Below, in pieces: positions 5,471-63,523 of a stretch of 64,000 bases of DNA. Origin of the DNA: Hoeflea sp. YIM 152468 (GTDB lineage: Bacteria; Pseudomonadota; Alphaproteobacteria; Rhizobiales; Rhizobiaceae); NCBI RefSeq assembly GCF_029210485.1, contig NZ_JARGET010000013.1, positions 62,001-126,000 on the forward strand, read 5' to 3'. Both the position numbers and the translations under genes were made by a program. Position 1 is the first letter of the stretch. Every line of letters starts with the position of its first letter. The notes under the pieces are model-generated. The model saw only the letters and a list, made by a program, of their open reading frames with translations. It ran no database searches and was not told the DNA's origin.

Positions 5471-6591
5471 GATGTCCGCTTGTCATCCAGGAATCGAAAC
5501 ACTTCATCTTGCGGCACGTCACCAGCCACAAAGGACTGGCCGATGCCGCGCGTCAGAATAAAGGTCAGCGCGCCGCGCCGGACTTTCTTGTCCTGCGCAA
5601 TGTGTGTCATCAGTATATCGGTCTTCGGCAGCTCACCTTCAATATCCGACATACGGGTTGGCAGGCCAACCTGGCTGAGATGGTGCCTGACGCGCGCCGC
5701 GTCGTCGGGACTCGCCAGGTTCATCCGCGCCGAAAATTCATACGCCAGAACCATGCCGATAGCCACGCCCTCGCCATGCACCAGGCGCTGTCCATCATAG
5801 CCGGTCGCCGCCTCCAGCGCATGGCCGAAGGTATGACCGAGGTTAAGCAGCGCCCGCGCGCCCGATTCCCGTTCGTCCGCTGCCACCACATCGGCCTTTG
5901 CCTGGCATCCCGTAGCGATGGCATGAATCCGCGCCGCCCCGCCGGCAAACACGTCACGCCAGTTCGCCTCAAGCCAGGCAAAAAACTCCGGCCGGTCGAT
6001 CAGGCCGTATTTCGCCAGTTCGGCATAACCGGCGCGAAATTCGCGGATCGGTAGCGTGTCCAGCACATCGGTGTCCGCCAGAACCAGGTCCGGTTGATGG
6101 AACACGCCGATCAGGTTCTTGCCATGGGCGGAATTGATTCCGGTCTTGCCGCCGACGGAAGAATCGACCTGGGCCAGAAGGCTGGTCGGCAGCTGGACAA
6201 ATCCCATGCCACGCCGCACGATCCCGGCCGCAAACCCCGACAGATCGCCAATCACGCCGCCGCCCAGCGCCAGCACCAAGTCACCCCGCTCCAGCCGGGC
6301 CCCCAGGACATGGTCGCAGACCCCGATCAGCTGGTCGAAACGCTTGGTTTTCTCACCGGGCTCCAGCACCAGAGGCGCAGCCTCGATCCCGCCTGCAGCC
6401 AGGCTTTCAAGAAGCGTGTCCAGATGCGCCGCGGCAACATTGCTGTCGGTGACAACCGCGCATCGTACACCCGGTTTGCGCGCGGCAATCTCCGCTCCGG
6501 CCTGGGCGATCAATCCCGGGCCGATGACAATATCGTAACTGCGCGCACCAAGATCAACGCGGACAATTTCACGCGGGAGGGTTAGGGTCAT
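5467..6591 (-). CDS. aroB: 3-dehydroquinate synthase
   Basis: AroB converts 3-deoxy-D-arabino-heptulosonate 7-phosphate to 3-dehydroquinate, the second step of the shikimate pathway, using NAD and a divalent metal. The 374-residue protein shows the NAD-binding segment ALGGGVIGDLSGF, the KTGINSAHGKNLIG substrate loop and the metal-binding LNLGHTFGHALE motif. Length matches the family. Its start overlaps the aroK stop by four bases (6588-6591), and its stop overlaps the CNNM/CorC gene, so aroK-aroB-corC reads as one translationally coupled operon. Confidence 0.97.
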   Translation of the reverse strand: MTLTLPREIVRVDLGARSYDIVIGPGLIAQAGAEIAARKPGVRCAVVTDSNVAAAHLDTLLESLAAGGIEAAPLVLEPGEKTKRFDQLIGVCDHVLGARLERGDLVLALGGGVIGDLSGFAAGIVRRGMGFVQLPTSLLAQVDSSVGGKTGINSAHGKNLIGVFHQPDLVLADTDVLDTLPIREFRAGYAELAKYGLIDRPEFFAWLEANWRDVFAGGAARIHAIATGCQAKADVVAADERESGARALLNLGHTFGHALEAATGYDGQRLVHGEGVAIGMVLAYEFSARMNLASPDDAARVRHHLSQVGLPTRMSDIEGELPKTDILMTHIAQDKKVRRGALTFILTRGIGQSFVAGDVPQDEVFRFLDDKRTS

Positions 6592-54059: not shown

Positions 54060-54923
54060 TCAGAGACTGGCGATTTCCGGCGCGTCAGCCGTCATCACCG
54101 CGCGGAGTTTCTCAATCGCGCGGCTTTCAATCTGTCGCACACGTTCCTTGGAGATGCCAAGCGCCGACCCGAGCGATTCCAGCGTTGCACCATCTTCCGC
54201 CAGACGCCGTTCCCGAATGATGCGCAGTTCGCGCGCATTGAGGGTGTTGAGCGCGTCGCCCAGCCAGCTATGGCGGCGCTCCTCGTCGATGATCATCGAC
54301 ACTTGCTCGTCGGGCAAAGGTTCATCGCTCTTGAGAAACTCGATCCGGTCAGACGAAGCCCCAGATTCTCCATCCGACATCGGCGCATTCAACGACGGAT
54401 CCGAACCGGACAATCGTGCATCCATAACGGCAACATCCTTGGCATGAACGCCCAGGGTGCTGGCGATTTGCAGGTGGATTGCGCTTTTGCTCAGAGAGGG
54501 ATCATCCTGGGCCAGCCGGGCCCGCAATCGCCGCAAGTTGAAGAACAACGATTTCTGCGCCGAGCTGGTGCCGCCGCGAACGATGGACCAGTTTCGCAGA
54601 ATGTAATCCTGTATCGAGGCCCTGATCCACCAGGTGGCGTAGGTCGAGAAGCGCACGTCCCGGTCCGGATCAAATCTCGCCGCCGCCTCCAGCAAGCCAA
54701 CATGGCCTTCCTGGACCAGATCGCTCATCAGCAGCCCGTAGTTGCGAAACTTCGATGCCATCGAAATAACCAGCCGCATATGCGCCATGGTTATCCGGTG
54801 CAAAGCCTCCTGGTCCTTGTTGTCTTTCCAGCGAACAGCCAGATCGTGCTCTTCGTCGCGTTCGAGATAGGGGGCCGCCATAGCGGCTCTCACCATTTGC
54901 CTGTTTGCGCTCAACGCTTTCAT
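54060..54923 (-). CDS. rpoH: RpoH-type sigma-32 factor
   Basis: A 287-residue sigma factor of the heat-shock class. Region 2 reads DLVQEGHVGLLEAAARFDPDR and RFSTYATWWIRASIQDYILRNW; the RpoH box (QKSLFFNLRRLRARL) identifies it as sigma-32, not RpoD; region 4 ends with LGISKERVRQIESRAIEKLR. Rhizobia usually have two rpoH genes; this one, next to the carD block, looks like the rpoH2 type, whose role includes oxidative stress, but paralogue identity is inference. A GGAAC-N17-CTTT element upstream may be an ECF sigma promoter. Confidence 0.9.
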   Translation of the reverse strand: MKALSANRQMVRAAMAAPYLERDEEHDLAVRWKDNKDQEALHRITMAHMRLVISMASKFRNYGLLMSDLVQEGHVGLLEAAARFDPDRDVRFSTYATWWIRASIQDYILRNWSIVRGGTSSAQKSLFFNLRRLRARLAQDDPSLSKSAIHLQIASTLGVHAKDVAVMDARLSGSDPSLNAPMSDGESGASSDRIEFLKSDEPLPDEQVSMIIDEERRHSWLGDALNTLNARELRIIRERRLAEDGATLESLGSALGISKERVRQIESRAIEKLRAVMTADAPEIASL

Positions 54924-55213
54924 GACACTCTCCCGTCTTGTCGACTGATCATCCTACCTTACGCCCGCAAGTCCGAAACGGATCATCACGCCGGTTGAAT
55001 TCGCCGTGATCTGCCCTCCAAAGTGCTCCAGCAAACCAAACACTGTTTGTTAAAGCCGTTCACACGCCAAAGGTTCCGATGAAAATCCGACCAATCCAGC
55101 TGGATTCGTTGTTTCAGAGTAGCGGACAACGGCACTGCAACCCTGCCCCACCGATTGCGCGCCGCGCCGCTTCGGATCAGGCAGTTTCTCTCGCCGCAGG
55201 GCGCCAGAAACAG
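54924..55213. other. Gap upstream of rpoH
   Basis: No gene is visible. On the minus strand it should hold the rpoH promoter. The candidate ECF element is listed separately, and the carD terminator lies at its far edge. Nothing else stands out. Confidence 0.5.
55052..55077 (-). promoter_or_regulatory. Candidate ECF (EcfG/RpoE4-type) promoter of rpoH
   Basis: On the minus strand, GGAAC (55077-55073), 17 bases, then CTTT (55055-55052). The alphaproteobacterial general-stress promoter is GGAAC-N16-18-CGTT, so the -35 is exact and the -10 has one mismatch. It lies about 130 bases before the rpoH ATG. In Rhizobium, rpoH2 is known to be driven by such an ECF sigma. Confidence 0.35.
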
Positions 55214-55245
55214 AAAAAGCCCGGGACACGCTGCGCGACCCGGGC
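55214..55245 (-). terminator. Intrinsic terminator of carD
   Basis: On the minus strand GCCCGGG (55245-55239) pairs with CCCGGGC (55225-55219) around a 13-base loop that can itself fold, followed by TTTTT (55218-55214). It lies 27 bases after the carD stop. Confidence 0.85.
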
Positions 55246-55271
55246 CTGGTACTGAAAATACGGCTGGAAGA

Positions 55272-55844
55272 TTATGCGGCTGCTTCTTCCTGCGCGCCCT
55301 CTTCATCATTGGCCTTGCCGCGCTTCGGACCCTTGTTGAGATTGACCTCGATCAGACGCACAGCTTCGGTGTCCGACATCTTGTTGACGGCGCCGAGTTC
55401 GCGCGCCATCCGGTCCAGCGCAGCTTCATAAAGCTGGCGTTCCGAATAGGACTGCTCAGGCTGGTTTTCTGCGCGGTACAAATCGCGGACCACTTCCGCG
55501 ATCAAAATCAAATCGCCGGAGTTGATCTTCGCATCATATTCCTGCGCACGGCGCGACCACATGGTCCGCTTGACCCGGGCCCGGCCCTGAACAACCTTCA
55601 ATGCGCGCTCGACGAAATCGGTTTCCGACAGTTTGCGCATGCCGATTGTCGACGCCTTGGCGACGGGCACCTTGAGCCGCATCTTGTCTTTGTCAAAGTC
55701 GATCACAAACAACTCAAGCTTGTGGCCGGCGACTTCCTGCTCTTCAATTGCAACAATCTGTCCAACGCCATGGGCGGGATAGACAATCGATTCACCGATC
55801 TTGAAACCCTGTCTCTGTGAAGGCTTTTTTTGCTGGATTGTCAT
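55272..55844 (-). CDS. carD: CarD family transcription regulator
   Basis: A 190-residue protein of the CarD/CdnL family, which binds RNA polymerase beta and stabilises open complexes at rRNA and other promoters. The N-terminal RNA-polymerase-interacting domain reads FKIGESIVYPAHGVGQIVAIEEQEVAGHKLELFVIDFDKDKMRLKV in segments, and the C-terminal helical DNA-binding domain follows (about 75-165). The tail is charged. Start at the ATG at 55844; a TTG three codons earlier is possible. It forms the end of a same-strand block with fdxA, the S4 protein and the helicase. Confidence 0.92.
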   Translation of the reverse strand: MTIQQKKPSQRQGFKIGESIVYPAHGVGQIVAIEEQEVAGHKLELFVIDFDKDKMRLKVPVAKASTIGMRKLSETDFVERALKVVQGRARVKRTMWSRRAQEYDAKINSGDLILIAEVVRDLYRAENQPEQSYSERQLYEAALDRMARELGAVNKMSDTEAVRLIEVNLNKGPKRGKANDEEGAQEEAAA

Positions 55845-56259
55845 ACGTTTCAAAACTCCCTGTTACGGAAACGGACACTGGGAGCCGAGCATGGGTTGCC
55901 CGGGCCGGTCCTGCGACGGCCGGCAGGCCCATCGCACTGACAACGCCAATCAAAAGCTGGACAAGGCAAGAACTGCAGACGACACCGCGCGGAATATGGC
56001 ATCCCGCCAGCATCGCGCTGCAAGGAAAAGGCCACCACTGTAAGGGACGTTTGCTTCCGTTTTTGCTTCTTGTTTCGCCCGGGCGGCGCCTTGAAGATGT
56101 CAGTAATACACTATGTATCACAAAAATTGGTGTAATTCAATGATTTGCGCAGGCAAACGAGCAGGCTGCGACGAAACATCCCGTGATTTGAGTCCCCATC
56201 CCGCAGCGCACTGGAAGAAACGATGCGCCGCAACAAGGGATCACCCGTATAAAGAGCGA
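55845..56259. other. Gap between carD and fdxA
   Basis: No supported gene in these 415 bases. The part near 56100-56140 is AT-rich (ATACACTATGTATCACAAAA on the plus strand) and is the likely carD promoter region on the minus strand, but boxes could not be fixed. A hydrophobic minus-strand frame near 55900-56020 was considered and not accepted. Confidence 0.4.
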
Positions 56260-56598
56260 TCAGTCGCCCTCACCCGGCTCCGCTGAGAAGTACTTTTCAA
56301 ACTTGCCTTCCTCGCCGTCAAACGCCTTGGCGTCACCAGGCGCATCACGCTTGATGGTGATGTTCGGCCATTTATCGGCATACTCGGTGTTGACCTCAAG
56401 CCATTTTTCCAGCCCCGGTTCGGTATCAGGCTTGATTGCTTCGGCCGGGCATTCAGGTTCGCACACCCCGCAATCGATGCATTCGTCAGGATGGATGACC
56501 AGCATGTTTTCCCCCTCGTAGAAGCAATCCACCGGGCATACCTCGACGCAGTCCATGTATTTGCAGCGAATGCAATTGTCGGTCACCACATAGGTCAT
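56260..56598 (-). CDS. fdxA: 7Fe ferredoxin FdxA
   Basis: A 112-residue ferredoxin of the Azotobacter FdI type, with one [3Fe-4S] and one [4Fe-4S] cluster. Cluster ligands sit in [18 protein letters not shown] near residues 8-25 and [17 protein letters not shown] near 39-55; a longer C-terminal tail follows. The start is the ATG at 56598 (MTYVVTDNC); an upstream frame extension lacks homology. It carries electrons in the cytoplasm; the partner enzyme is not shown here. Confidence 0.95.
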
Positions 56599-56869
56599 AC
56601 GTCTCTCCTGAGGCTCCATGCATGTCGCGATCGGGTAGTCTGAGTCGGCAATACATGCATTATTTCAGAGCGTTACAGCAACCCACGCGATCGAGTGGCG
56701 ATCAAGGCGCTGTAGCGAACAACGGCGGTGAGGTACCGGCTTTAAAGGCGTATTGCAAGACTTCAGATTCTGCAAAATCGCCGCAGGGATTTGGCGAAGG
56801 GCAAACCTCGCTCCCGCAGCGCGGCTTTTTAAAATGAACGTCTCCAATCGCGCCCCAGTCAAGACAGAT

Positions 56870-57259
56870 TCATGCGCCGGCATCGGAATTGCGGAACTGA
56901 TCCATTTTTCGTCTGTCCCGCTTGGTCGGCCGGCCAGCGCCCGGCTCACGCTGTGCGGCGCCGGCCTCCGCTGCAGCGGCTTCAACAGGCTTGGGCGTGA
57001 TGTCATCGTAGAGCAATTGCGCTTCAGGCGCCGGGCCACGGCGATGGCCGGTTCCAAGCACCCTGAGCACGACAACACGCCGCTCCTGTTTGATCGTCAA
57101 CGTGTCTCCCGGCTTGATCGGAAACCGCGCCTGATCGATTTTCTCGCCATTGACCCTGACATTGCCTGCGGCGGCAAATTTGCCAGCCAGTGTCCGGGAC
57201 TTGATGATGCGCGCGAAAAACAGCCACTTGTCGATACGCTGTCGTTCCGGTTGGCTCAC
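56870..57259 (-). CDS. S4-domain RNA-binding protein (Hsp15-like)
   Basis: A 129-residue protein with an S4 RNA-binding domain at residues 4-70 (RIDKWLFFARIIKSRTLAGKFAAAGNVRVNGEKI), like Hsp15, which in E. coli rescues stalled 50S subunits. The C-terminal tail is Ala/Glu/Gly/Arg-rich and poorly conserved in type. The start is a GTG at 57257-57259 with a GGATCAGG site before it; no in-frame ATG is near. It begins eleven bases after the helicase stop, so the two are one transcription unit. Confidence 0.85.
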   Translation of the reverse strand: MSQPERQRIDKWLFFARIIKSRTLAGKFAAAGNVRVNGEKIDQARFPIKPGDTLTIKQERRVVVLRVLGTGHRRGPAPEAQLLYDDITPKPVEAAAAEAGAAQREPGAGRPTKRDRRKMDQFRNSDAGA

Positions 57260-57270
57260 CTGATCCAGTC

Positions 57271-60200
57271 CTATTTCTTCAGCTTGTCGCGCAAGGCCGC
57301 CAAGGCCGCGAAAGGAGAATCGGGATCAATCGGCCGCTCCTTGCGTTGAGCCCGCTCATTGCGATTTGTATCGCCGCCGCCCTTGGCCGGAGCATTTCTG
57401 GCCGGTCCACCCTTGCCGAAACCACCCCTGCCGGCCCCAGCCTTGCCGTGGTGGGCGGACTTTCCGCGATGCCCCTTGTGCGGACGGCCTGCACCATCGG
57501 TTCCGGCGGCTCCGGCTTCCCCTGCGGACTGGTCGCCCGCCGGTGCATTGCGATTGCGGCCGTCCCGCCGACCCCGGCCCTCGCCAGGCGCCTGTCTCGC
57601 ACCGCGTTGCCCATCCTGACGACCGCCAGGTCTCCACAACAGCATCGGCCGTGGCGTCTCCACCACTTCTGGCTCGGCAGATGCTTCCGCAACGACATCC
57701 GCTTCAGGCGCGGCAGAAACCGGCGCTTCCCCGGCGGCCGCAAGCGCAGGCTGCTCCGCCTTTTCTGACGGATCCGCCACAGGCGCAGACGCGTCAACAT
57801 GGCTCTCAGCCGTCGCCTCACCGGAGGTTTCGCCGAGAATTTGACGGGGTGTCGCATCGGCTACACTGTCGGCTGCAGCCGTGTCCGACACAGCGGTTTC
57901 GGCCTCTGCCGGGCCCTGCGCGATCACTGCGTCCGGCTTGTGAGGGCGATCGGCTGCTGTTCGCGAAACCACCACTTCGACCACGGGCCCCGCACTGTCG
58001 GGTGCGGAACTTCCGGCCAGCGCCGCGTCAAGACTTGCCAGATGGCTTTGCGCCTCGTCAGCAGCGACTGCGTCCGCGCGATAGCCAAGTCCCTTGAGAA
58101 TCTCCTCGATGTCGTCCTGCGTCGCGCCGAGAATAGACAGCATCCCGGTCGTGGTGATGAACCGGCGACCATCATAGGCTGCCTCCGGGCGCGCGCCAGG
58201 AGCGCCGGGCTTCCACTGCAGTGCCGGGCGGATCAGATCGGCCAGCCGCTCGAGAATGTCTATACGCACCGCGCGCTTGCCGAGAAACCGGAAGCCCGCC
58301 AGACGATAGAATTCCCGATCGATCCCAGGATCGGTCGCCACCGAAGTGCGGCCCGCCGCCAGCAGCGGTGTCACGTCGCCATAACCGGGCCTGGTGAACC
58401 CGTCATTGGCGAGCGCCCACAGCAGCGTCACCAGCTCGGCTGGGGCCGGCTTGAGCAGCGCCGGCATGAAGACGTGATAGGCGCCGAAGCGGATGCCGTA
58501 TTTGCGCAGGCTTGCCCGCGCCGACTGATCGAGATCCTTGATCATTTCCGACACATCGCGGCGGAACAGCACACCAAGGCTCTCCGCCAGACGGAACGCC
58601 AGACCACGCGCCAGGCCATCGATATCCTCGGCCCGTGTCAGATCGTCCAGCGGCTTGAGCACGGTGGCGATGTGATGATTGACGTAGCGGTCGATCCGCG
58701 CCGCGACCAAATCGCGGGCGCCGCCACTCAGTTGATCGTCGGCCAGCAGGATGGTGCGCGGCTTGAGGATGTGGTCCCCCGTCGCCAACTTGGCAACCGG
58801 ATCGCCCAGCCAGCGCACTGTGCCGTCCGCGCCGATGGCAAAATCGGAATTGCCCGAGGCGTGCAGACGCGCCGCCCGCGCTTCGAATTCGAGCCCCAGC
58901 GCTTTCTGCGCTGCCGCCAGAACCGCCTTGGCGTCCGGTCCGTCTGCCGACGTATCCGGCATAAAGCGGAATCCGGCTAATTGTCCAATATGATGACCTT
59001 CAACAAAGACATCACCGTTTACACTGATTTCAGCTTCGAGCATCACGTTCTCTCTCAGGCGCCTCATGAGCACAGATGTCCTGCGGTCAACAAAGCGTTT
59101 CGTCAACCTTTCATGCAACGCATCGGACAATCGGTCCTCGATTTCGCGCGTCTTTTCCTGCCAGTGTGTCGGATCGGCAAGCCATTCAGGTCTGTTGGAA
59201 ATGTAAGTCCATGTCCGGATCTGTGATATCCGGGCCGACAATGTGTCGATTTCTCCATCGGTAGAATCGGTTCTGCGGACCTGTTCGGCCAAAAAGTCTT
59301 CATTAACCGTACCAGCATGAATCAGATCCCGATAGATCGTGGCGATCAGATCGGAATGCTGCGCCGGCGCGATACGACGATAATCCGGCAGCGAGCACAC
59401 GTCCCACAGCGTGGCAATATTCTGCGGTGTGCTCGCCAGGTCCCGCACTTCGAAATCATTGACCAGGTGCTCAAGGGCGCGCTGGTCCACCGCCGGCACG
59501 GCGCGGGTCAGGCCGGGAACTCCGGGCGTTTGTTCCAGACTGTCCTGCAGCGCACCGAGACTGGAAAAATCGAGCTGCTTGGAGCGCCATTGCAGGATCT
59601 TGACTGGCTCGAAAACATGACTTTCAAGCCGCTGCACCAGATCATCCGGCAGCGGCTGCACCTGACCGGTGACTCCGAACGTGCCGTCCCGCAAATGGCG
59701 TCCGGCACGCCCGGCGATCTGGCCAAACTCGGAGGCCGTCAGCTGCCGGTAGGAAAAGCCGTCGAATTTCCGGTCCTGGGCAAAGGCCACGTGATCAACA
59801 TCGAGATTGAGCCCCATACCGATGGCGTCGGTCGCCACCAGATAATCGACATCACCGTTCTGATAGAGCTCGACCTGCGCATTGCGCGTCCGCGGGCTCA
59901 AGGCCCCCAGCACCACCGCGGCGCCTCCGCGCTGACGCCGCACCAGCTCGGCAATGGCATAAACCTCCTCCGCCGAGAAGGCCACAATCGCCGAGCGCCG
60001 CGGCAGCCGGGTGATTTTCTTCGAACCCGCATGATGCAGTTCCGACAAGCGCGGCCGTTCCACAACGCTGATCCCGGGCAGCAGTTGCTCGAGAATACCG
60101 CGCACCGTTGCTGAGCCCAGCAGCAGGGTTTCATCCCGGCCGCGCAACGACAGGATCCGGTCGGTGAACACATGCCCGCGCTCAAGATCGCCGGCGATCT

Positions 60201-60525
60201 GCACTTCATCTATGGCGACGAAGGCGGCGTTGGTTTCCTGCGGCATCGCCTCGACGGTGCAGACGGAATAGCGGGCACCCGGTGGCGAGATCTTTTCCTC
60301 CCCTGTGACGAGAGAGACCTGGCTGGCGCCGACCTTTTCGACCATGCGGCCATAGACTTCGCGCGCCAGCAACCGGAGCGGCAACCCGATCACGCCTGAC
60401 CCGTGCGCTGCCATTCGCTCGATGGCAAAATGGGTCTTGCCGGTATTGGTCGGGCCGAGGACGGCGGTCACACCGCGTCCGGACAAGATCAGGGGTTTGG
60501 AAGGATGGCTGCGCAAAGCGGGCAT
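57271..60525 (-). CDS. Suv3-like superfamily 2 helicase with long low-complexity tail
   Basis: A 1084-residue protein. The N-terminal 350 residues form an SF2 helicase core: Walker A GPTNTGKTHFAIERM (residues 24-38), the Asp-Glu-Val-Gln box at 106-109 as in mitochondrial Suv3, GSATVR at 138-143, and motif VI QIAGRAGRHLRDG (269-281). A conserved middle region follows to about 830. The last 200-250 residues are low-complexity: first Ala/Glu/Val-rich, then Arg/Gly-rich (RPGGRQDGQRGARQAPGEGR). Suv3 relatives unwind RNA in degradosome-type complexes; that role is inferred. It precedes the S4 protein gene by eleven bases. Confidence 0.85.
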   Translation of the reverse strand: MPALRSHPSKPLILSGRGVTAVLGPTNTGKTHFAIERMAAHGSGVIGLPLRLLAREVYGRMVEKVGASQVSLVTGEEKISPPGARYSVCTVEAMPQETNAAFVAIDEVQIAGDLERGHVFTDRILSLRGRDETLLLGSATVRGILEQLLPGISVVERPRLSELHHAGSKKITRLPRRSAIVAFSAEEVYAIAELVRRQRGGAAVVLGALSPRTRNAQVELYQNGDVDYLVATDAIGMGLNLDVDHVAFAQDRKFDGFSYRQLTASEFGQIAGRAGRHLRDGTFGVTGQVQPLPDDLVQRLESHVFEPVKILQWRSKQLDFSSLGALQDSLEQTPGVPGLTRAVPAVDQRALEHLVNDFEVRDLASTPQNIATLWDVCSLPDYRRIAPAQHSDLIATIYRDLIHAGTVNEDFLAEQVRRTDSTDGEIDTLSARISQIRTWTYISNRPEWLADPTHWQEKTREIEDRLSDALHERLTKRFVDRRTSVLMRRLRENVMLEAEISVNGDVFVEGHHIGQLAGFRFMPDTSADGPDAKAVLAAAQKALGLEFEARAARLHASGNSDFAIGADGTVRWLGDPVAKLATGDHILKPRTILLADDQLSGGARDLVAARIDRYVNHHIATVLKPLDDLTRAEDIDGLARGLAFRLAESLGVLFRRDVSEMIKDLDQSARASLRKYGIRFGAYHVFMPALLKPAPAELVTLLWALANDGFTRPGYGDVTPLLAAGRTSVATDPGIDREFYRLAGFRFLGKRAVRIDILERLADLIRPALQWKPGAPGARPEAAYDGRRFITTTGMLSILGATQDDIEEILKGLGYRADAVAADEAQSHLASLDAALAGSSAPDSAGPVVEVVVSRTAADRPHKPDAVIAQGPAEAETAVSDTAAADSVADATPRQILGETSGEATAESHVDASAPVADPSEKAEQPALAAAGEAPVSAAPEADVVAEASAEPEVVETPRPMLLWRPGGRQDGQRGARQAPGEGRGRRDGRNRNAPAGDQSAGEAGAAGTDGAGRPHKGHRGKSAHHGKAGAGRGGFGKGGPARNAPAKGGGDTNRNERAQRKERPIDPDSPFAALAALRDKLKK

Positions 60526-60616
60526 TAACGTCCGTATCTAGCTCAAGACGGCTGTTGTCTACCACATCAAGACAGGCGAAACAGGGGCAAATATCAAACA
60601 GGCCGGTTACCCGGTG

Positions 60617-60786
60617 TTTAACCATTGGAACAGTGACGGAACGAATCGGCGACGAATCAATGACTCACCGTGATTCAGGTTTTGTTCACCCCAAGATATG
60701 GGGTTTTGCCGGACCGGCGCCACCAGATACTGAATCCCGATCCCGATACTCGTCGCCAAATCGCCGATTGCCGTTAACCTTTGCCG
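60617..60786. repeat. Intergenic module copy 1
   Basis: Box A: TTAACC (60619), then GGAACAGTGACGGAACGAAT from 60627, then CGGCGACGAATCA, and TTGTTCAC ending at 60689. Box B: CCGTTAACCTTTGCCGG from 60771. The GAAC-AGTGACG-GAAC core has the spacing of alphaproteobacterial LexA boxes. Box B GTTAACC begins 146 bases after the first GGAAC. This copy is the closest to the helicase start (about 100 bases upstream of it). Confidence 0.75.
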
Positions 60787-60897
60787 GGGCATGGCTGCAA
60801 ACCGGGTCGACGTCGCCTCGTCACGTCGATAGGTTTATGATTTGTTAATCATTCCAAAGGGTTCCTTAATCTTTTGCAGGAGAGTCCAGAGGCCGCA

Positions 60898-61066
60898 TTA
60901 ACTTCCGGAACAGCCACGGAACGAATCAGCGACGAATCACTGACCTTGCTCTGTTTTCTGTTTGTTCACGGCTATATCTTCCGTCCGGCGCCTTTCGTGT
61001 CACCACATACGGTATCGACAGTCTGCCACACATCGACAATGCGGCCTCGACCGTTAACCATTCCCG
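60898..61066. repeat. Intergenic module copy 2
   Basis: Box A: TTAACTTCC then GGAACAGCCACGGAACGAAT from 60907, CAGCGACGAATCA, and TTGTTCAC ending at 60969. Box B: CCGTTAACCATTCCCGG from 61051, again 146 bases after the first GGAAC. Core GAAC-AGCCACG-GAAC. It is 280 bases after copy 1. Confidence 0.75.
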
Positions 61067-61170
61067 GCCATTTCATGACTTGACATCCAGGCGGAAACGG
61101 AAGCGCCTTTCCTCCAGGATGCATTCGCATATCCATTCCTGCTCGACGGTTGCATCGCATTTGAACGATT

Positions 61171-61341
61171 CCGTTAACCTTTGGAACAGCCAAGGAACGA
61201 ACCGGCGACGAATCACAGATCTGCCCATGTTGGCCGTATGTTCACCGCAACATCTCGCGATTCTGGCGGTAGACCACACCATATTTGCCGCTAGCCTGCT
61301 GGTCCGGCAACCAGGCCTGGAGCAGAAATTAACCTTTGCCG
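61171..61341. repeat. Intergenic module copy 3
   Basis: Box A: GTTAACCTTT then GGAACAGCCAAGGAACGAAC from 61183, CGGCGACGAATCA, and ATGTTCAC ending at 61245. Box B: AATTAACCTTTGCCGCC from 61327, 145 bases after the first GGAAC. Core GAAC-AGCCAAG-GAAC. It is 276 bases after copy 2. Confidence 0.75.
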
Positions 61342-61370
61342 CCGTCTGATGCAGTCCTGCAGCCCCCAGC

Positions 61371-61398
61371 AAAAAGGCAGCCCCGAGCGAGCCGCCTT
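61371..61398 (-). terminator. Intrinsic terminator of phaA-phaB
   Basis: On the minus strand AAGGCGGCTC (61398-61389) pairs with GGGCTGCCTT (61383-61374), two G-U pairs included, around a 5-base loop, followed by TTT within a TTTTT run (61375-61371). It lies 26 bases after the phaB stop. Confidence 0.75.
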
Positions 61399-61424
61399 GA
61401 TGGGTCGCTGGTCATTGGTTGCGC

Positions 61425-62150
61425 TCAGCTGAAGTACTGGCCGCCATTGGCTGAAATCGTTGATCCGGTGATGAAGCCGGCGTCATCGGCCGCCAGAAAC
61501 ACCACAGCCCGCGCGATCTCCTCCGGCTCTCCCAGACGACCGACCGGGATCTGCGGGATGATGCGCTCGTTGAGCACCTTTTCATCGATGGCGCGAACCA
61601 TATCGGTACCAATATACCCCGGACAGATGGCGTTGACGGTGATGCCGGCGCGGGCGCCTTCCTGGGCGAGCGCCCGGGTAAAGCCGATATCGCCAGCCTT
61701 GGCCGCGGAGTAGTTGACCTGACCCGCCTGGCCTTTCTGACCATTGATCGAGGAAATGTTGATCACCCGGCCGAACTTGCGTGTCCGCATGCCGCTCCAG
61801 ACCGGATTGGTCATGTTGAACAAGCCGGTAAGGTTGGTGTTGATCACTTCGCTCCACATTTGCGGCGTCATCTTGTGAAACATCCCGTCACGGGTAATGC
61901 CGGCATTGTTGACCAGCACCGCCACCGGACCCAGGTCAGCCTCGACCTGAGCAAGACCGGCAACGCAAGAATCGTAGTCAGCGACCGACCATTTGTAAGC
62001 TTTGATTCCGGTCTCGGCGGTGAATTTCGCCGCCGCCTCGTCATTGCCTGCATAGTTGGCCGCTACCGTATATCCGGCGTCCTTCAATGCGATCGAAATC
62101 GCCGCGCCGATACCACGCGTTCCCCCCGTCACAATTGCCACTTTGCTCAT
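61425..62150 (-). CDS. phaB: Acetoacetyl-CoA reductase
   Basis: PhaB reduces acetoacetyl-CoA to (R)-3-hydroxybutyryl-CoA with NADPH for polyhydroxybutyrate synthesis. The 241-residue short-chain dehydrogenase has the cofactor motif GGTRGIGAAIS near residue 10, NNAGI, the catalytic Ser in INISSINGQKGQAGQ and the Tyr-x-x-x-Lys in YSAAKAG, then CPGYIGTDM. The start is the ATG at 62150 behind GGAGGACAAT. It follows phaA with a 197-base spacer. Confidence 0.95.
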   Translation of the reverse strand: MSKVAIVTGGTRGIGAAISIALKDAGYTVAANYAGNDEAAAKFTAETGIKAYKWSVADYDSCVAGLAQVEADLGPVAVLVNNAGITRDGMFHKMTPQMWSEVINTNLTGLFNMTNPVWSGMRTRKFGRVINISSINGQKGQAGQVNYSAAKAGDIGFTRALAQEGARAGITVNAICPGYIGTDMVRAIDEKVLNERIIPQIPVGRLGEPEEIARAVVFLAADDAGFITGSTISANGGQYFS

Positions 62151-62347
62151 ATTGTCCTCCTCCAAGGTACTTTTCTTATTTCGTTGCAGACCCATGAACG
62201 CCGCTTCAGCAAAACCGTTCGGGATGTGCGCGCCGGCTCCTCTGGATGCCGGCCCGCAACGACAGGATTGCCATCAGACATGGTGTGACAGGCAGCGAAG
62301 GTTTCAGACTGATTTTCCAGCACCCTCGCCACGCGCTTCATGGCAGG

Positions 62348-63523
62348 TCAGCCGCGCTCGACGCAGAGCGCCACTCCCATGCCGCCGCCGATGCACAGTG
62401 TCGCAAGTCCCTTTTTCGCATCACGGCGAACCATCTCGAACAGCAGCGTGTTGAGAATGCGCGCGCCCGATGCGCCGACCGGATGGCCGATTGCGATGGC
62501 GCCGCCGTTGACGTTGACGATCGCGGGATCCCAGCCCATGTCCTTGTTGACGGCGCAGGCCTGTGCCGCGAACGCCTCGTTGGCTTCCACCAGGTCGAGA
62601 TCGCCGACGCTCCAGCCGGCTTTCTCCAGCGCCTTGCGCGACGCCGGGATCGGGCCGGTGCCCATGATCTGCGGATCGACGCCGGCAGTGGCCCAGGAGA
62701 CAATCCGCGCCATCGGTGTGATGCCGCGCTTGGCGGCTTCGGCTTCGCTCATCAGCACGGCGACGGCAGCGCCATCATTGATGCCGGACGCATTGGCGGC
62801 GGTCACGGTGCCCTCCTTGTCAAAGGCCGGACGCAGCTTGGAAATGCCCTCGATGGTCACGCCGTGCTTGATGTACTCGTCGTCCTCGACGACCGTATCG
62901 CCCTTGCGGCCCTTGATTGTCACCGCCGCGATCTCGTCCTTGAACTTGCCGGCCTTCTGCGCAGCTTCCGCCTTGTTCTGCGAATTTACCGCAAAATTAT
63001 CCTGCTCTTCGCGCGTCAATTGCCATTGCTTGGCAACATTCTCTGCGGTGGTGCCCATCAGGTAGTTGTAGAACGCATCGGTCAGCGCGTCATGCATCAT
63101 AGTGTCGACCATGCCGGCGCCGCCCATCTTGACGCCATTGCGCAAATGCATCGCATGCGGCGCCAGCGACATTGATTCCTGGCCGCCGGCAACAATGATG
63201 CTGGCGTCACCGCTAGCGATCTGCTGCATGCCAAGGGCGACGGCGCGCAGACCCGAACCGCAGAGCTGATTGAGGCCCCAGGCCGTGGCTTCCGGCGGAA
63301 TGCCGGCCGCCATTGCCGCCTGACGTGCCGGGTTCTGGCCCTGGCCCGCCGACAGGATCTGGCCCAGAATGACCTCGTCGACATCTGCCGGCGCAACACC
63401 GGCGCGCTCAAGCGCAGCCTTGATGGCGATGGCGCCCAGATCGTGGGCCGGAACGGAGGACAGGGCGCCGTTGAAGGATCCGACGGGCGTGCGGGCAGCG
63501 CTGGCGATAATGATGGAGCTCAT
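62348..63523 (-). CDS. phaA: Acetyl-CoA acetyltransferase (beta-ketothiolase)
   Basis: PhaA condenses two acetyl-CoA to acetoacetyl-CoA. The 391-residue thiolase shows the acyl-binding cysteine in [15 protein letters not shown] near residue 88, the His in [17 protein letters not shown] near 348, and the C-terminal catalytic Cys in [14 protein letters not shown]. The start is the ATG at 63523 ([15 protein letters not shown]). First gene of phaA-phaB, divergent from phaR, the usual rhizobial arrangement. Confidence 0.95.

Follow-up and report, generated by a model that had tools for sequence, protein, structure and literature searches.

Upstream of one gene, that of a Suv3-like helicase, Hoeflea sp. 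YIM 152468 carries a conserved DNA element that is repeated here as three tandem modules. Judged from its sequence, the array is probably a composite operator that would couple the helicase operon to dNTP and replication status through NrdR-type box pairs. The three modules are real and are found within the genome at this array alone. Beyond the preliminary description of this DNA, each copy carries a pair of palindromes, and conservation extends far outside the genus. The window referred to below is the whole 64,000-nucleotide (64-kb) stretch analyzed, and positions are numbered from its first letter (Table 1).

The array lies in the gap between two minus-strand genes, that of the helicase and phaB; the gap, previously put at some 900 bases, spans 60526 to 61424. 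The module pattern GGAACAG-N2-A-N-GGAACGAA begins at 60627, 60907, and 61183, at intervals of 280 and 276 bp, and in all three modules TGTTCAC ends at base 63, the first G included in the count. These positions and this distance had been described before and were all reproduced. A later TTAACC box had been placed at 146, 146, and 145 bases; it is indeed present in each copy, but its starts lie one base further, 147, 147, and 146 bases past the first G in modules 1, 2, and 3. A repeat finder grouped the modules into one 82-nt family, with identities of 68% and 77% to the middle copy. With up to 3 mismatches allowed, the compound pattern had 3 matches in the window versus 0.37 expected, and none of 100 shuffles reached 3. 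A search for the box patterns elsewhere in the genome, as suggested earlier, returned the three modules as the sole exact matches and 8 further places with 2 mismatches each; the reversed pattern gave 13 matches genome-wide versus 11 for the true one. Compared with its own genome, the 841-bp array region matched itself alone.

Table 1. Features of the array and of the genes flanking it in the window
Feature	Positions	Strand	Basis
Suv3-like helicase gene, presumed controlled gene	57271..60525	minus	PF22527 E 2.7e-26, PF00271 E 7e-9
Module 1 (helicase-proximal)	60618..60735	+	pattern, repeat finder, model E 1.2e-20
GAAC-N7-GAAC, LexA-type, module 1	60628..60642	+	site scan; predicted
Conserved core GGAACGAATCGGCGACGAATC, module 1	60638..60658	+	11-bp direct repeats; alignment
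NrdR-type box 1, module 1	60689..60704	.	matrix 12.5 bits
NrdR-type box 2, module 1	60720..60735	.	matrix 9.7 bits; 31 bp from box 1
Module 2	60898..61015	+	pattern, repeat finder, model
GAAC-N7-GAAC, module 2	60908..60922	+	site scan
Conserved core, module 2	60918..60938	+	site scan
NrdR-type box 1, module 2	60969..60984	.	matrix 8.1 bits
NrdR-type box 2, module 2	61000..61015	.	matrix 7.7 bits; 31 bp from box 1
Module 3 (phaB-proximal)	61173..61291	+	pattern, repeat finder, model
GAAC-N7-GAAC, module 3	61184..61198	+	site scan
Conserved core, module 3	61194..61214	+	site scan
NrdR-type box 1, module 3	61245..61260	.	matrix 7.2 bits
NrdR-type box 2, module 3	61276..61291	.	matrix 7.8 bits; 31 bp from box 1
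Span of eleven GANTC sites in gap	60643..61263	.	site scan
phaB	61425..62195	minus	gene bordering array gap

Eleven GANTC sites start in the gap (60643, 60654, 60662, 60672, 60732, 60882, 60923, 60934, 61167, 61210, and 61259). No 899-bp stretch of the window, taken in 50-base steps, exceeds this count, and 0.4% of the stretches, those covering the array included, equal it. The clustering of these sites, pointed out earlier, is conserved: modules of the family hold 24 GANTC per kb, two of the sites sitting within the module-finding pattern, versus 1.3 per kb in the helicase coding sequence. At least four GANTC are present in 109 of 122 proximal modules versus 4 of 132 distal ones. GANTC is carried by CcrM/GcrA-type promoters, as known from Caulobacter work. 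Conserved GANTC is what the modules share with such promoters; they differ in that the module GANTC stands outside any recognizable promoter.

DNA matching the array region was found in 31 of 61 genomes, its own included. With at most 3 mismatches allowed, a 32-base pattern was present in 195 of 297 genomes of the family, and its reversed control gave zero matches among those listed. From 36 modules, a sequence-only model with 85 positions was derived; it matched in 302 of 397 order genomes and in 36 of the 385 genomes sampled from the class, 32 of these outside the order; the filters of the model drop weak matches, and absences in the order and class are soft. Among the matches listed, the named module-bearing genera are Hoeflea, Mesorhizobium, Rhizobium, Ensifer, Brucella, Bartonella, Chelativorans, and Nitratireductor. 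Both the boxes and their spacing are conserved at the syntenic locus in relatives, which supports the preliminary description on a point where the lack of such conservation would have counted against it. Arrays comprise 1 to 5 modules, with up to five in Hoeflea. Read by eye, the class-wide consensus is GGAACA-N5-GRRACRAA-N5-CCGAATCRCTGAC-N11-TTC-N5-TTYGTTCAC-N2-3-palindrome. All members of the 36-sequence alignment share GAACGAA and CGAATC unchanged, an invariance that is partly built in because the core had served to find the family modules. The letters TTAAC stand ahead of many family modules.

The helicase gene accompanies the module nearly throughout. It adjoins the module in 57 of 60 family loci (L009 to L068); the exceptions are a contig end (L022) and two likely chance matches with 3 mismatches and no helicase (L065 and L066). 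Among the matches listed, it does so in 107 of 117 named stretches, some contigs being represented more than once and three helicase starts (L086, L178, and L181) having been recognized by a search with the N-terminal part. Eight of the ten remaining stretches end less than 200 bases from the module. The same N-terminal search of 14 further loci found the helicase in L301 alone, which had been counted already. The helicase also stands beside the module in 30 of 30 order loci, the window's own included, and in 27 of 29 class loci. In L118 and L172, the module has no helicase within the next 645 and 1045 bases, where other open frames lie. A second, weaker module match (E 4.8e-6) was seen in an 8.0-Mb genome (G343:C1:2910782-2910863), 1.5 Mb off the helicase copy.

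On the same strand past the helicase (54060 to 57259) lie genes for an Hsp15-like S4 protein (below the family cut-off), a FdxA ferredoxin, a CarD-like protein, and an RpoH-like sigma factor, the last two assigned by eye. Judged by strand and order, the helicase operon would consist of the helicase, Hsp15-like, and fdxA genes and perhaps the CarD-like and RpoH-like genes. The window's helicase probably has its Sinorhizobium meliloti ortholog in SMc03877 (mgpS), and we take Suv3-like helicases to be the bacterial counterpart of mitochondrial SUPV3L1. The name mgpS for SMc03877 comes from the available text of PMC4941405. Among the top papers listed by a search of the open-access literature, none dealt with the element or with NrdR control of the helicase; the helicase array may be among the 186 NrdR regulons that PMC5343134 reports.

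The palindromes at the module end resemble the published NrdR consensus, and a matrix from reductase promoters was therefore tried. Large reductase genes were taken from 21 genomes, and NrdR-like pairs were read upstream of a class II-sized gene (called nrdJ here) in 12; the boxes from these 12 genomes made up the matrix, which contains no module letters. Six of the 12 regions supplied a poor or mis-assigned box (a strong-weak pair taken first in L310, L321, and L328; a poor extra box in L315, L316, and L320), and this imperfect automatic choice makes the matrix noisier, not nearer to the modules. For the matrix, box-retention, spacing, and LexA counts, duplicate modules or loci were collapsed to one. 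On 278 unique modules, the matrix peaked at a single position with a mean of 7.3 bits, versus −15.5 bits for shuffled modules, 99.9% of which scored below 7.1. At the peak position, 65% of the modules exceed the 0.1% null, and within a 12-base range 76% do. A second peak lies exactly 31 bp beyond the first. Among the matches listed, 112 of 149 box pairs are spaced exactly 31 bp, and where both boxes reach at least 3 bits, 100 modules have the 31-bp spacing versus 0 to 5 for any of the other spacings between 26 and 36 bp.

All three modules of the window carry two 16-bp palindromes with this separation (Table 1), and no other box pair of that strength occurs in the window. Single matches of 7 to 8 bits, the range of the boxes in modules 2 and 3, were found at 22 places elsewhere in it. 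In 800 sampled kb of another genome (G256), no box pair was detected; this genome's own module, inside the sample, is too weak to score as a pair. Searched alone in 12 genomes, the box 1 motif fell within the array by position at 23 of 24 places, the other being in G204, and its reversed control gave 1 match; no second target emerged from this search. Box 1 scored above threshold in 68 of 122 proximal family modules, while in the distal ones the first box is kept in 121 of 132 and box 2 reaches at least 0 bits in 29 of 132. In 43 loci (L262 to L304), all but one from other families, a box lies above threshold in 39, the module outscores its 1.2-kb flank in 41, with the flank itself reaching threshold in 18, and a partner of 5 bits stands at 30 to 32 bp in 8. 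Many modules have one strong box; the partner scores low or escapes detection in many modules that are distal or come from outside the family.

The nrdR gene was present in all 19 module-bearing genomes tested, that of the window included. Among genomes in which no module was detected, 24 of 34 have nrdR and 10 lack it (P of about 0.007, calculated by hand, for cases that are not independent because seven of the ten genomes lacking nrdR are small genomes from the window's family). Nine small-genome family members in this comparison were scored as module-negative by the 32-base pattern.

According to the accessible parts of two papers (PMC12051234 and PMC9110341), NrdR is a repressor of reductase genes with boxes usually at the reductase promoter; it requires dATP plus ATP for binding and a pair of 16-bp palindromes separated by whole helix turns, of which there are usually three, with four tolerated. 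The box type and spacing predicted for the window modules are those of NrdR operators. As in the Listeria nrdAB operator, with its proximal and distal pair (so far as those texts describe it), and in the nrdJ regions collected here, 16-bp palindromes form pairs three turns apart, with more than one box set per gene. The window modules differ from NrdR operators in place, having neither a reductase promoter nor an overlap with a visible polymerase site: the module 1 boxes lie 164 to 210 bp upstream of the helicase start, and the next gene is not a reductase gene. Unlike known NrdR operators, moreover, each module is fused to a GAAC/GANTC core and is kept across the order. A −10-like hexamer was seen inside the first box in 40 of the 278 modules.

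The distances between modules were also compared. In 105 distinct loci, the distance between modules 1 and 2 is 269 to 277 bp (48 loci), 280 to 285 bp (45), or elsewhere (12), with clusters at 272 and 283 bp, and helical phasing is therefore suggested. On a helicase tree (FastTree, parsimony), the two spacing classes require at least 13 switches, 4 of them forced by well-supported branches. The data suggest that whole helix turns may have been gained or lost between modules, as for proteins on one face of the DNA. The phasing signal comes from the recurrence of two lengths: the distinct lengths taken alone are not periodic (P = 0.31 for modules 1 and 2; P = 0.99 for all), later spacings in Hoeflea are scattered (mostly 276 to 282, 287 to 288, and 299 to 301 bp, with one of 268), and the window's own spacings fit phasing less well. 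In Mesorhizobium and Rhizobium relatives, visual inspection places a helicase promoter in the stretch from module 1 to the start codon. The distance from the module to the presumed promoter varies from 52 to 133 bp, with clusters at 57 to 62 and 99 to 102 bp; since a promoter word was found in 77 of 125 upstream sequences and the words were chosen by eye, a phasing of module 1 to the promoter was not adopted.

What reads the modules can be explained in several ways. We tentatively attribute the palindromes to NrdR because a matrix made from reductase promoters alone peaks in the modules, the partner box lies at 31 bp, which is NrdR geometry, and nrdR accompanies the module in 19 of 19 genomes tested. 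The first two of these findings make it rather unlikely that the pair is read by another regulator with an NrdR-box-like site, an explanation that would accommodate the many modules with a single strong box and under which the reader of the core could own the palindrome too. The preliminary description had instead offered, as one reading, GAAC-N7-GAAC as a LexA operator in every module, and part of this reading survives, for the site is kept in the helicase-proximal module. It occurs in all three window modules and, among the matches listed for L069 to L185, in 82 of 82 proximal modules, compared with 10 of 86 modules in distal position and 3 of 21 among first modules more than 250 bp from the gene. 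This count uses L069 to L185 because L039 to L068 had been chosen with a pattern that included the first GGAAC. Upstream of recA in 14 genomes, the same spacing recurs, exactly in 7 and with at most one mismatch in all 14, where chance would give about 0.3 one-mismatch sites per region by a hand estimate; an exact site is absent from the recA upstream region of this genome. The modules thus have GAAC-N7-GAAC in the gene-proximal copy in common with alphaproteobacterial LexA operators such as that of recA. They differ from these in that the site is mostly lost distally, where the first NrdR-type box is kept, in that it lies inside a larger invariant core, and in that its spacer is G-rich, those of the recA sites being mostly A-rich, with half-sites and spacing alike. 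By eye, the second half-site has drifted to GGAC or GAAAC at several loci from other orders. Moreover, the second GAAC belongs to the search core, and the first half alone is therefore an independent test. Altogether, LexA as the main regulator, with the array serving as LexA operators for damage-induced expression of the helicase, appears unlikely, and a damage input through the LexA-type site of the proximal module is plausible.

Two other explanations fit the data less well. Vibrio crtS and E. coli datA are known non-coding elements related to replication, and the array could be a comparable DnaA-titrating or replication-timing site near the origin; it resembles them as a conserved non-coding element of multiple boxes and, in the family, by its position near hemE, which we take to be a neighbor of oriC. 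GC skew, tried for placing the origin of G256 on 40 stretches (800 kb), was too noisy, and hemE was used instead. The array lies 57 to 483 kb from hemE in those 19 of 24 family genomes that have the two on a single contig and the module next to the helicase (G240 was left out of the count together with L065 and L066), and in 22 other genomes with a known place the distance is 37 to 742 kb, worked out by hand with rounded genome sizes. The GANTC cluster would fit such a role, as would TCCACAG-like runs, similar to DnaA boxes, that in several genera immediately follow the distal module (L039, L041, L042, L043, and L056 to L059) and are missing from the window. However, in five genomes of one family (f35) the array is 1.1 to 2.3 Mb from hemE and stands beside the helicase in all five, so that it follows the helicase, not the origin, and unlike crtS and datA it is tied to one gene rather than to origin distance. 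Furthermore, none of 20 hemE regions contains a module, although 19 of them have a DnaA box within one mismatch, and the window array lacks a DnaA box at this stringency. A role set by chromosome position is accordingly very unlikely, and the module as a mark of the origin itself was rejected, since the hemE regions lack it. Small RNAs transcribed from the modules, also proposed earlier, would suit a tandem, conserved, intergenic array; the searches for them gave no support, and tandem small-RNA genes seem highly improbable. Rfam had no family match at the array (59000 to 63000, E up to 1), its one match being a sub-threshold RNase MRP match within the helicase gene (59795 to 59856; 17.7 of 50 bits), taken as chance. 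The consensus fold of the modules has 5 pairs, none compensatory (−0.95 kcal/mol), fold z-scores of six strands range from −1.82 to +0.63, no excess of folding, and the array contains no promoter-like site and one terminator-like site, the level of shuffled sequence. By eye, no promoter was consistent within the modules. The lack of covariation, the fixed spacings, and the clusters of module spacing argue that the module acts as DNA rather than RNA.

For the array as a composite operator read by NrdR, the following mechanism can be envisaged. When dNTPs are plentiful, NrdR bound to dATP and ATP would occupy each box pair as a tetramer; neighboring modules, separated by near-integral helix turns, would cooperate, probably via looping, and the NrdR-bound array would hold down the helicase promoter. 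Falling dNTPs would then release NrdR from the array. The LexA-type site may contribute a signal from DNA damage, the GANTC cluster one from methylation or replication timing, and a further protein would read the invariant core.

The array suggests a tie between the helicase and DNA replication. A wider proposal, which we consider possible but doubtful, is that of an ancient alphaproteobacterial switch through which dNTP level (NrdR), damage (LexA-type site), replication timing (GANTC methylation), and a core factor would all bear on the Suv3-like helicase. If it is true, the helicase would have begun as a replication-stress enzyme, not merely as an enzyme of RNA decay. If an NrdR-type array serves a helicase across the order and into other orders, NrdR would have a wider role in DNA metabolism, and a Suv3-like helicase under dNTP control would inform on the role of the ancestor of mitochondrial Suv3. 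With its 11-bp repeats, the invariant core suggests an additional regulator.

Some further boxes were seen outside the modules. Single NrdR-like boxes without a partner stand at 5499 and 56118 in the window (12.2 and 12.8 bits), the latter upstream of the CarD-like gene. In the nrdJ regions (L310 to L328; for example, L312), a further NrdR-type box lies 243 to 253 bp from the pair in 9 of 12. Ten of the 12 nrdJ regions retain a CTTGAC box with GANTC shortly after it, which points to control of the reductase by methylation.
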